Assembly (NCBI GenBank): GCA_036703275.1 | Contig: DATNPK010000076.1 | Location: 186,001-250,000, forward strand | Source of the DNA: Coleofasciculaceae cyanobacterium | GTDB taxonomy: Bacteria; Cyanobacteriota; Cyanobacteriia; Cyanobacteriales; Xenococcaceae | Reading direction: 5' to 3' | DNA: 64,000 nucleotides | Shown here: positions 461-3,342 of the stretch, in pieces | How positions within the stretch are numbered: position 1 is the first letter of the stretch | How the letters are laid out: each line of letters opens with the position of its first letter | Notes under the pieces: model-generated | Seen by the model: the letters and a program-made list of their open reading frames with translations, nothing else | The model's database searches: none | What the model was told of the DNA's origin: nothing | Position numbers and translations under genes: made by a program

Positions 461-740
461 AAAAACGCTCAGATTTCCTCTGAACGTTGCCTAAAATATA
501 TGATGTATAATTTCGCTTAGAGCTTAGAGCTAAAAACTAGCTAATTTGAACGAAGCTAATTCACATCAAAGGGATATTACAAAGCATTAGCACCAGCAAC
601 TACCTCAGAAAGTTCCTGTGTAATTGCAGCTTGTCTAGCTTGGTTGTAGGACAAGGTTAAATTGCCCATCAAATCTGTCGCATTTTCACTAGCATTATTC
701 ATCGCCGTCATTCTGGCTGCTAGTTCATTTGCTGCGGCTT
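461..740. repeat. Direct repeat copy 1: atpG 3' end plus its terminator
   Basis: This block aligns along its length with 3083-3342 (last ~54 codons of atpG, 3' UTR and terminator hairpin). The coding part differs at roughly 18 of 164 positions and the 3' UTR part more, with small indels. Similarity stops sharply after base 740. Together the two copies bracket the accessory genes at 812-3038. Confidence 0.9.
464..488. terminator. Hairpin terminator between recQ and the displaced atpG end
   Basis: AACGCTCAGA (464-473) pairs with TCTGAACGTT (479-488), with one G-T pair. The hairpin is preceded on the plus strand by an A-run, which is a T-run for minus-strand transcripts. It is homologous to 3087-3111. 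It would stop minus-strand transcripts and probably also the convergent recQ transcript. Confidence 0.65.
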
Positions 741-741
741 A
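577..741 (-). pseudogene. Displaced 3' fragment of atpG (ATP synthase gamma subunit)
   Basis: On the minus strand this encodes about 54 residues ending ...[15 protein letters not shown] and a stop at 577-579, matching the C-terminus of the intact gamma subunit at 3179. Only four residues differ (N/S, D/E, N/T, Q/K), although about 18 nucleotides differ, so most changes are silent. In frame, the codon just upstream (739-741) is a stop, so the fragment has no start and cannot make a protein. The excess of silent changes says the fragment separated from a working gene only recently, rather than decaying since the two sequences diverged. It is probably the native old 3' end or the remains of a second allele. 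Confidence 0.9.
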
Positions 742-811
742 AGATAGATTAAGTTGGCAATTTCAATTGTTAAAATTATCTGTAAATAACATCCCACTGG
801 AGCAAGTGACC

Positions 812-1531
812 ATGATTGGTGAAAATAGACAACCAAATATTCAGTACGATCAAAATTATCAAACCGTCAATCCCGAAACATCTTATACTCGTTCGGCAGG
901 TACAACTAACGCTTCGAGAACAACTCCTACAGAACAAAAATACGCGACGAATAGTACTCCTATGTCTGTAAATGGAAATAAAACTACAGACAAAAATCTT
1001 AATCCCCTTTTAGCAGGGGCGTTAATGGGAGGATTAATCGGTGTTAGCTTGGGTGCATTAAATGGTCTTTTAAATGGCAAAAAAACCTCTGAAGCTTTCA
1101 AGCAAACTTCTAAAGGTGTCAGTTCTGGTTTTAAAAATGTAGGGGAAGGTTTAAATTCTACTGCTAAAGGTTTGGGAGAGGTAGTTACCAGTATAGGTAA
1201 AGGTGTCAGTCATACAGTTGTGGGTGGCGCACAAGAAGCGATCAAAGGGGTTGGTGAAGTAACTCAACAAGCAGCAAATTCTGTTCAAGATACTGCCGAA
1301 AATATTAATCAAGCTGTAGCCGATACCGCCAATAACGTTAAAAATACAACTGAATCAGCCACATCATCTTTGGCGACTGAAATAGATTCTACTAGCGATA
1401 TCGTACAGTACGATCGACCAGCTACCAATTCAAGTGTTGAGGAATTAAACGATTATAATGCTGCTAGCACAGATCTACTTAATAAAGAAAAGTCTTTAGC
1501 AGAAGACGACATTATGGGTTCCAATTATTAA
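812..1531 (+). CDS. Glycine-zipper / YtxH-like protein with LEA-like amphipathic repeats
   Basis: 239 residues. I start at ATG 812 because GGAG at 799-802 is ideally spaced; a TTG 45 bases upstream lacks this. The order is a polar N-terminal ~60 residues, a glycine-zipper membrane segment (LLAGALMGGLIGVSLGALNG), then about 110 residues of degenerate amphipathic repeats rich in K, G, V, T and N (KGVSSGFKNVG, KGLGEVVTSIGKGV), and an acidic tail. Such proteins resemble YtxH and late-embryogenesis-abundant-like stress proteins, but no biochemical role follows from the sequence. It is a paralogue in layout of the next gene at 1718. Both lie in the segment bracketed by the atpG repeats, so both are probably acquired cargo. 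Confidence 0.7.
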   Translation: MIGENRQPNIQYDQNYQTVNPETSYTRSAGTTNASRTTPTEQKYATNSTPMSVNGNKTTDKNLNPLLAGALMGGLIGVSLGALNGLLNGKKTSEAFKQTSKGVSSGFKNVGEGLNSTAKGLGEVVTSIGKGVSHTVVGGAQEAIKGVGEVTQQAANSVQDTAENINQAVADTANNVKNTTESATSSLATEIDSTSDIVQYDRPATNSSVEELNDYNAASTDLLNKEKSLAEDDIMGSNY

Positions 1532-1717
1532 AAGCAAAAAGTTTGTCAGCAAATTAGGTTTCTCAATGGAATTTTCGACCATACAAAATAAAAACCGTAA
1601 CGTTGCATAGGCAAGCTCGACAATAAGCATAAAAAGGTAGCCATAAAATTACAAGTAAAAACTCGTTAAAGTTATTGGCTACTTTTCGTTTCAATAAATC
1701 AACAATTGAGAAAAAAA

Positions 1718-2266
1718 ATGACTAATAGCAATCAAATTTCAATTGATCGAATCGAAAATAGTAGCTTTACAGAAGAGTCTGATCGCGTGCCATCAAATAC
1801 CGATACAACAACGAAAACTCCCAAGAGCGAAATAGTAAGACTGTTAACTGGAATGCTAATCGGTGCTACTTTAGGTGGAGTTGCAAGCATTTTATCTAGC
1901 AAAAGTGCAATTTCTCGAATCAATCAAAACATTCAAAAAGCAGGAAGCGTAGTAGACAAGACAGCTACAAACATCAACAATACTGTCAAAGACGTAGGGG
2001 AAGCAGTTCAAAGTGTTGCCGTAGTCGTTAACGATACATTTCAAGATGTAGAAGTAACTTTTAAAAGTACAGCCGACGATGTTAACGAAACTGTAAAATC
2101 TACAGTAAGTACTGTTATGAATACCGCCCAAAGCGTTAATAACACCGTCAAAACTACAGCAGACATAATTAATACTGTCAAACAACCTGGAGAAAATAGA
2201 GAAAACAAGCAACCTAATAACAATGACGGTAATGAAACTCTATATAAATTAGTGCCGATCGAATGA
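1718..2266 (+). CDS. Second glycine-zipper / YtxH-like protein with LEA-like repeats
   Basis: 182 residues starting at ATG 1718 (a TTG four codons upstream is the alternative). A polar N-terminus of about 40 residues precedes a zipper helix (LLTGMLIGATLGGVASIL). Some 100 residues of alpha-helical repeats follow, built on a loose 11-mer with V, N and T (NNTVKDVGEAVQSV, NETVKSTVSTVMN, NNTVKTTADIINTV), then a polar tail. The architecture is the same as that of the gene at 812 and suggests duplication. It could be a membrane-anchored stress or surface coil; function unknown. The 186-bp gap to the upstream gene makes a shared transcript possible but unproven. Confidence 0.7.
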   Translation: MTNSNQISIDRIENSSFTEESDRVPSNTDTTTKTPKSEIVRLLTGMLIGATLGGVASILSSKSAISRINQNIQKAGSVVDKTATNINNTVKDVGEAVQSVAVVVNDTFQDVEVTFKSTADDVNETVKSTVSTVMNTAQSVNNTVKTTADIINTVKQPGENRENKQPNNNDGNETLYKLVPIE

Positions 2267-2329
2267 ATAAAGGCAACAGGTAATAGGTAATAGGCTTGGC
2301 ATTGTCTGAAGGAAAATGAATACGATTGT

Positions 2330-2362
2330 CTGCGATCGACTACAATTTGTAGTTGATCGCAG
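2330..2362. terminator. Long inverted repeat after the second zipper gene
   Basis: CTGCGATCGACTACAA pairs with TTGTAGTTGATCGCAG with one mismatch. It lies about 65 bases beyond the stop at 2266. It has no clean T-run, so it may be a HIP1-containing hairpin rather than a true terminator. Confidence 0.4.
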
Positions 2363-2436
2363 GGATCGCGATGGAGTAATAGAAGATTTATTGGTAGTCC
2401 TAAAGATGTGAGGATGTGTTGTCCTAAAGGATACCG

Positions 2437-2805
2437 CTTCGCATATAGTAATGGACAAAGTACCAAATTGCCCCGATCTGATTTTCGATTTTCTTGGAAA
2501 ATGAAAGAGTCTTCCTGACTAAACGAGAAACCCTTTGGCTTAATGTACAGTTAAATCTCTCGATATAATTAGTTTTTCCCGTTTCTTCTTGAAACAATCG
2601 CTGCGCGGGCGAATAGCCCGCCAGTCGTCGAAGACGACGATCTGAGCGAAGCTCTGCGGGGAAACCCCCAAGACCGCGTTGTTTCGCTTTTCCTATAGCT
2701 TGATAACGTTTTGAAGGAATTACCTGTTCGTAGGCTTCCCAAAAGTCGCTATAACAAACAGCACATTGTCGATAGAGTGGTAGAGATTGCCAAAGCTTTT
2801 TTTTT
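2437..2805 (-). pseudogene. IS1-family transposase (InsB) remnant
   Basis: Read on the minus strand, the frame gives LWQSLPLYRQCAVCYSDFWEAYE, then VIPSKRYQAIGKAKQ and, after an insert, ETGKTNYIERFNCTLSQR, VSRLVRKTLSFSKK and IGAIWYF. This is the classic C-terminal half of IS1 transposase. The N-terminal half and the InsA frame are missing, and the 3' end runs into a short repeat (GTCCTAAAGGATACCGCTTCGC). An ~80-base GC-rich block at about 2601-2680 interrupts it in frame. The fragment is dead as a transposase but shows that mobile DNA reached this spot. Confidence 0.85.
2601..2680. repeat. GC-rich multi-hairpin repeat inserted in the IS1 remnant
   Basis: The block holds four consecutive small hairpins: GCGGGC/GCCCGC (2605-2621), GTCGTC-GAA-GACGAC (2624-2638), GAGC-GAA-GCTC (2644-2654) and GGGG-AAA-CCCC (2658-2668). 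It breaks the IS1 protein between GKAKQ and RLFQEETGK without shifting the frame. Its composition differs strongly from the AT-rich surroundings. Confidence 0.7.
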
Positions 2806-2882
2806 ATGCTCCTTTTCTACTGCGATCGCCTTAATTTAGAATCTTCTAAGATTAAAGGCAAAAATAGGCTATAAGCAATAAA

Positions 2883-3038
2883 ATGGGAATCCCACAACTA
2901 GTTATTGGCAATAAAAATTACTTATCATGGTCGCTTCGTGCTTGGCTGATTCTGGCTAAACTAGGTATTGAGTTTCAAGAAATTCGCGTACCACTTTGTA
3001 CAGAAGGATATCAAGCAAAGGAAGTAAGAATTAAATAA
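2883..3038 (+). pseudogene. Truncated glutathione S-transferase (N-terminal fragment)
   Basis: ATG at 2883 opens a 51-residue frame beginning MGIPQLVIGNKNYLSWSLRA and continuing through EFQEIRVPLCTEGYQAKEV to TAA at 3036-3038. This is the thioredoxin-fold N-terminus of a GST (the usual S-W-S-L-R motif and the E-I-R-(V/I)-P-L strand). The rest of the ~200-residue enzyme, including the helical domain, is missing. The truncation lies about 45 bases from the second atpG repeat junction, so it probably marks the recombination end. Confidence 0.75.
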
Positions 3039-3082
3039 CTTATGCCTAAAGCGATCGCTTTTTAATAGTTTTGCTGCCAAAT

Positions 3083-3342
3083 GAAAAACGTTCAGATTGC
3101 TTCTGAACGTTAGATTAAATATATAACTTAGCTTAGAGCTTAAAACTAGCTAATTTAAAGAAGCTAATTAACCTCATCTTACAAGGCATTAGCACCAGCA
3201 ACTACCTCGGAAAGTTCCTGTGTAATTGCAGCTTGTCTAGCTTTGTTATAGGACAAGGTTAAAGTTCCCATTAGTTCAGTTGCATTCTCACTCGCATTAT
3301 TCATCGCCGTCATTCTCGCTGCAAGTTCACTAGCTGCTGCTT
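3083..3342. repeat. Direct repeat copy 2: 3' end of intact atpG plus terminator
   Basis: Partner of 461-740. It includes the last 54 codons of the working atpG, its 3' UTR and terminator. Homology ends inside atpG after the codons for [10 protein letters not shown]..., going upstream, at base 3342. Confidence 0.9.
3087..3111 (-). terminator. Terminator of the atp operon
   Basis: AACGTTCAGA (3087-3096) and TCTGAACGTT (3102-3111) form a perfect 10-bp stem about 70 bases downstream of the atpG stop. An A-run on the plus strand gives the T-tail for minus-strand transcripts. Confidence 0.75.

Follow-up and report, generated by a model that had tools for sequence, protein, structure and literature searches.

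A second ATP synthase gamma gene end beside recQ in a cyanobacterial genome is probably donor DNA carried in by homologous recombination

How does an ATP synthase operon come to end in two copies of the same gene end, with accessory genes lodged between them? The question is raised by a 64,000-nucleotide stretch of a Coleofasciculaceae cyanobacterium genome (GenBank assembly GCA_036703275.1, contig DATNPK010000076.1, positions 186,001 to 250,000), which we call the window. There the 3' end of atpG, the gene for the gamma subunit, occurs once in the intact gene (copy 2) and once as a truncated stump beside the neighbouring gene recQ (copy 1); two glycine-zipper genes, an IS1 remnant and a damaged GST gene lie between. 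A first-pass annotation had taken this geometry for the product of site-specific integration into a gene end, with the old 3' end displaced. Here we ask whose DNA each part is. We denote the genome of the window G000 (5.6 Mb, listed contamination 0.66%; the window is G000:C76:186001-250000 on a contig of 258 kb) and the 12 other genomes of the same genus G001 to G012.

The two copies align over 280 columns at 81.4% identity (blastn, 461-740 against 3084-3342), and their ungapped core (574-740 against 3176-3342) is 89% identical. As the first-pass annotation had described, both keep a stop codon (577-579 in copy 1, 3179-3181 in copy 2) and a terminator, here a terminator-like 10-pair hairpin following each (488-464 and 3111-3087). 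Their common coding part is 162 bases, or 54 codons including the stop, with 18 base differences in 17 codons, exactly four of which change an amino acid (N/S, D/E, N/T and Q/K). In the alignments the homology stops at 740, and the copies are mismatched within the final 20 bases ahead of that point, leaving no identical attachment core at this edge. The earlier description of an acquired segment between two diverged atpG alleles is borne out.

Copy 1 is closest to G003 (95.8%), followed by G006 (151 of 166 bases) and G002 (149), and stands well apart from G012 (139/166, 83.7%); its terminator behaves alike (0.88 to G003, 0.87 to G006, 0.65 to G012). Identity to G007 is 83.7% by alignment, a value used in place of that genome's counts in the switch analysis (23-26 of 80-84), which were a length-offset artefact and were dropped. 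If the gamma 3' end had been duplicated neutrally long ago in a single lineage and had decayed from then on, a stump of 54 codons with two amino-acid changes relative to G003 might be accounted for, but copy 1 is much nearer G003 than its own genome's gamma gene (88.6%), and we regard such a history as very unlikely. The first-pass annotation was right that the far copy is no old decayed duplicate of the local gene. Its notion of a displaced old 3' end finds no support: copy 1 is of donor type, and so is the recQ tail that adjoins it.

The genomic background points elsewhere. Identity between G000 and G012 is 88.0% in recQ, 90.1% in gamma, 91.0% in alpha, 90.4% in a methyltransferase gene and 90.8% in a gene at 12876, which we take to encode a response regulator; against G002, G003 and G006 the same genes reach about 79-87% (the gene at 12876 against G002 alone). 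Trees of the recQ 5' part and of gamma plus alpha both join G000 with G012 at 100/100, and placing G000 with G002, G003 and G006 is rejected by the approximately unbiased (AU) test (p 0.0006 and p 0.0005, respectively). By these trees G012 is the sister of G000 in recQ, gamma and alpha. The tree of the recQ tail plus copy 1 instead groups G000 with G002, G003 and G006 at 98/98, and the AU test rejects G000 with G012 (p 0.009). Neither recQ-based tree includes G001, whose recQ was not retrieved, or G010, whose recQ is incomplete; G010 is also missing from the gamma-alpha tree.

The left neighbour matches the recQ model TIGR01389 of NCBIfam above its cut-off, as well as Pfam RecQ domains, and the change of ancestry falls inside it. 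A two-state hidden Markov model (HMM), with settings chosen after the site pattern had been seen, places the switch between 224 and 228, and MaxChi places it at 248-257 (p 0.0002, 5000 shuffles). G003-type sites make up 32/36 after the break and 101/359 before it, and positions 317-430 are 93.9% identical to G003. These results show that recQ from about 225-257 onwards is, like copy 1, of the clade of G002, G003 and G006, hereafter the donor clade, and that recQ upstream and the bodies of gamma and alpha are native.

On the other side of the insert, G003 leads G012 over the last 80 coding bases of copy 2 (Table 1) and trails it over the next 84 (72 against 76). The two copies are also more alike in these last 80 bases (76/80) than upstream of them (70/84; Fisher p 0.023). 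The first-pass expectation that each copy would match a different lineage is correct upstream of 3259 and fails in the last 80 coding bases, where both copies match G003 at 78/80. With G003 and G012 as references, MaxChi finds the gamma-side switch at 3239-3248 (p 0.013; 6 of 6 sites), and the copy 2 terminator is nearest G002 (0.90, against 0.65 to G012). We conclude, with less certainty than for the left side, that gamma's final 80 bases, together with the terminator, belong to the donor clade as well.

The insert thus probably lies within some 3 kb of donor-clade DNA that has its left edge in recQ and its right edge probably in gamma. Based on these sequence comparisons, we consider it likely that the ready-made layout of an unsampled donor of the G002/G003/G006 clade was moved whole into G000 by homologous recombination. 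Such a donor would already have carried recQ, the gamma stump, the zipper pair, IS1, GST and gamma in this order. The recipient would have taken up its DNA, and RecA-type exchange with crossovers inside recQ and the gamma 3' end would have carried the insert along between these two core genes; competence has been reported for several cyanobacteria. The recipient would also have exchanged another part of the operon, from delta to atpI, perhaps with the same donor molecule. Homologous recombination with a related donor had been named in the first-pass annotation as an alternative, and is the best fit.

The stump, going by its affinities, is donor-type DNA, not the recipient's displaced 3' end, and would be a relic of the building of the layout. 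It would be older than the transfer, dating from a time in the donor lineage when a GST-linked gamma segment, as in G002, joined a recQ-linked gamma, as in G006. This join may have been homologous on one side and end-joined at 740, or may have been a single crossover of a circle with a gamma fragment; the gamma side is homologous, and the 740 side is without visible homology. Homology-facilitated illegitimate recombination (PMC3240628) would combine the same elements, in that a homologous gamma side and a non-homologous 740 join would give a stump plus insert; here it is proposed solely for the earlier building step in the donor lineage.

Several observations weigh against a ready-made donor layout. 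The zipper genes were not found in any of the three donor-clade genomes, and the full layout of recQ, stump, zipper, IS1, GST and gamma was not found in the 12 other genus genomes (in one of the scans at most 23 candidates were scored per genome). The identity of the GST stretch to G002, 90.8% across 185 bp, exceeds only moderately what plain descent might produce. The gamma-side switch rests on few sites, and the right edge is less certain than the left because MaxChi is not significant with G002 (p 0.20) or G006 (p 0.14), the best splits then lying near 3.89-3.91 kb. The tested clades were named only after the identities had been seen. Finally, the copy 2 terminator is nearest G002 and not G003, and the donor itself would therefore be composite.

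The same absence of the insert and its zipper genes from every donor-clade genome would suit another history, in which a GST-linked gamma fragment entered G000's own lineage, the layout was built there, and later short G003-like conversions overwrote the recQ tail, copy 1 and the last 80 gamma bases. A G002-like terminator in copy 2 beside a G003-like copy 1 would suit it too, since more than one event is then possible. This history would however require at least two conversions, ending by chance right at the insert on either side, and it seems to us rather unlikely.

Synteny in the genus bears on whether the layout is real. Gamma is present in 12/12 other genus genomes, and its far side is a frequent synteny break. 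In two of the twelve (G006 and G012) recQ lies directly beyond gamma, convergent and with one terminator, across gaps of about 130-150 bp, which is the arrangement that the first-pass annotation had proposed to look for in relatives; window positions 1-740 align straight across this join in G006. One genome (G002) has an intact GST gene beyond gamma, to which positions 2833-3017 and 3000-3400 align. Seven (G003, G005 and G007-G011) have other reading frames there, differing among themselves by eye, and the contigs of G001 and G004 end too early to show what lies beyond gamma. Both outer joins of the window thus occur elsewhere, separately: recQ-gamma in G006 and G012, GST-gamma in G002.

An assembly chimera at one or both of the inner junctions (740 and 2830) would be another origin for the layout, and these junctions do rest on the assembly alone and were found in no other genus genome. 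We hold it to be distinctly improbable: the outer joins exist in relatives, the tract edges lie inside genes and away from 740 and 2830, and neither the length of the contig nor the listed contamination points to it.

Had an element integrated site-specifically at the 3' end of gamma and left the displaced end beside recQ, the geometry would look similar: the intact gene would have gained a new 3' end, and another 3' end would stand on the far side of the insert. Integrative elements that use an integrase at 3' gene ends leave a duplicate gene end flanking the acquired DNA. Here, no integrase was seen among the insert's four main open reading frames (Pfam scan; smaller frames of 741-3082 were not scanned), the copies differ at the 740 edge and have no identical core, the flank is of donor type from inside recQ, and the supposedly displaced end is not the recipient's allele. 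The first-pass proposal of such an integration is therefore highly improbable.

The event appears to be real and of a known kind: recombination brought accessory DNA in between core genes and, unusually, left a stump behind. It resembles natural-transformation-type recombination tracts (PMC13344027) in its donor patches, their edges in conserved genes and the native DNA between them; here, unlike there, the tracts come from a comparison of species and the donor is unsampled. The case suggests that accessory genes can enter beside an essential operon through recombination in neighbouring core genes and without an integrase, and the left edge could be placed within some tens of bases. It also serves as a warning that a second gene end beside an acquired segment is not necessarily the host's displaced end.

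Table 1. Features of the locus in window coordinates
Feature	Position	Strand	Basis or remark
recQ 3' end, changing from recipient-type to donor-type at ~225-257	1-419	+	HMM and MaxChi
Copy 1: donor-type 3' end of a G003-like atp gamma gene (54 codons counting the stop) and its terminator, truncated at 740	461-740	-	159/166 to G003
Junction of gamma stump and zipper module, novel	740-741		not found in 12 other genus genomes; assembly only
Zipper gene 1, 239 aa, glycine-zipper and helical repeats	812-1531	+	open reading frame; order-wide matches
Zipper gene 2, 182 aa, in tandem with zipper gene 1	1718-2266	+	open reading frame; order-wide matches
Remnant of an IS1-family element (~307 of 782 bp) with one of its ends, interrupted by a repeat	2393-2830	-	PF03400; full copies in G007
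Dispersed repeat, ~105 bp, inserted in the IS1 remnant	2579-2683		similar copies in several genus genomes
GST gene, internally deleted, its first 45 codons running directly into the last few	2833-3038	+	90.8% to G002
3' end of the intact gamma gene (last 80 coding bases) with its terminator, probably donor-type	3083-3258	-	78/80 to G003, 71/80 to G012
Intact atp gamma gene, body native (G012-like)	3179-4123	-	90.1% to G012, 84.6-85.1% to G002, G003 and G006
delta, b, b', c, a and atpI, second donor-clade tract	5833-9144	-	edges ~5.6-5.9 kb and ~9.4 kb, the latter possibly 9.66 kb

A second donor-clade tract lies further into the operon. From delta to atpI, the distance of G000 to G002, G003 and G006 equals the distance within that clade (ratios 0.79-1.19), against ratios of 1.74 in recQ, 2.02 in gamma and 1.88 in alpha; the methyltransferase gene next upstream gives 1.36, and the clade itself is more variable there. 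The left edge falls between the alpha start and delta. At the right edge, G000 and G006 are 89.0% identical up to 9421 but 79.1% from 9428, positions about 100 bases apart in G006, and from 9434 the match to G012 rises to 90%. The tract may extend slightly further, because MaxChi detects a milder change at 9657/9658 within the methyltransferase gene (p 0.0008; G003-type sites 27/185 beyond it and 26/59 before it).

For this block we used the distance ratios. A donor-type HMM run in delta-atpI was not counted as evidence and the AU test of G000 with G012 was set aside, because G012's own block is divergent; the block trees were built without G010, and the second of them omits G012 and G004 on purpose. 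Both tracts may stem from one event. Transformant Bacillus genomes often contain several discontinuous donor segments in close proximity (PMC13344027).

As an observation in its own right, G012 (L079 6442-10035) and G004 (L087 3055-6780) have in common a divergent delta-b-b'-c-a-atpI block, with ordinary alpha and gamma. Against the other genus genomes compared, the G012 block has 59-71% identity in four of its six genes (59-66% for b, b' and atpI, about 70% for a), whereas delta and c reach 74-83%. A search of 120 genomes of the order, G004 not among them, turned up no close source (best 57%, for b). The block may be old, because G012 and G004 resemble each other in it (80-90%) about as much as in gamma, alpha and recQ (79-84%). 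We tentatively raise the possibility, doubtful as it is, that in this genus the stator and membrane motor genes from delta to atpI have been exchanged between species as a unit, apart from alpha and gamma, and that an ancestor of G000 perhaps had the divergent version and was converted back, which would make such enzymes natural hybrid ATP synthases. Operon parts also behave as separate modules in a study of F1Fo ATP synthase evolution (PMC5709465), here delta-atpI against alpha-gamma; that study concerns deep evolution and transcription units, and the present case exchange between species of one genus. Block-wise difference of the motor and stator in close relatives would offer a testable case of modular enzyme evolution.

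The insert has the content given in the first-pass annotation (two zipper genes, an IS1 remnant and a shortened GST gene), except that the GST gene is not simply truncated: about 480 bp are deleted internally relative to G002, and the last few codons are kept. Its N-terminus matches PF13409 below that model's cut-off (E 0.0077), and we call it GST because of its DNA identity over 2833-3017 (90.8%) to the intact 218-aa GST gene of G002, which adjoins gamma. The IS1 fragment abuts this region at 2830/2833. Its transposase matches PF03400 above the cut-off (E 1.2e-6), and it keeps one terminal repeat, at about 2393, in common with the 782-bp copies in G007; the other is missing, and that side ends within the element at 2830. 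It is thus like the IS1 family in its domain and terminal repeat and differs in being a fragment with one end only. The two IS1 pieces that flank the 105-bp repeat are contiguous in G007. The repeat itself has GAAACAA/TTGTTTC ends, read by eye. No Rfam family reached its gathering score over positions 1-8700.

The zipper genes are weakly related to each other (27%, E 1.4e-4) and match no Pfam or NCBIfam model at its cut-off. Of the 388 genomes of the order, G000 included, 82 have matches to zipper 1 and 71 to zipper 2; within the genus the only other match is a weak one in G007. Zipper 2 lies downstream on the same strand within about 1 kb in 18 of the 19 best zipper 1 matches outside G000 (by eye; the exception is G305). 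Six loci were read, of which two from one genus (G291 and G278) have common neighbours and the other four differ. The pair is a patchily distributed two-gene unit without a named family, and its make-up allows no more than a guess at a membrane-associated stress role. Across the zipper loci L157-L164 and window positions 812-2266, tandem order and strand are conserved across the order, patchily.

Other origins for the zipper genes were tried and set aside. A tblastn search with zipper 1 (zipper 2 was not run) gave no match at 1e-5 in 72,556 plasmid and 50,697 phage records, nor did a contig-level scan with the same protein, limited to close relatives, yield any. PADLOC matches to the defence protein ZorA (best E 1.5e-6, zipper 2) span only about 70-140 residues of a much longer protein, and we attribute them to helical composition; matches of window proteins to phage tail tape-measure proteins (best E 1.6e-6) are likewise attributed to it.

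Further observations concern the surroundings of recQ and gamma. Left of recQ (L036, G000:C76, about 5200-12000), several kb in G000 are absent from the otherwise collinear region of G004. In G003, recQ (L090 8705-8993) is followed by a sequence resembling a tRNA 3' end (by eye) and then other sequence, a hint of a separate insertion beyond recQ. By gamma protein, the nearest named relatives of G000 are Waterburya, Pleurocapsa, Myxosarcina and other Pleurocapsales cyanobacteria. Second gamma genes, 64-66% identical, occur in two members of the family (G018:C116:11274-12215 and G023:C111:10301-11242).

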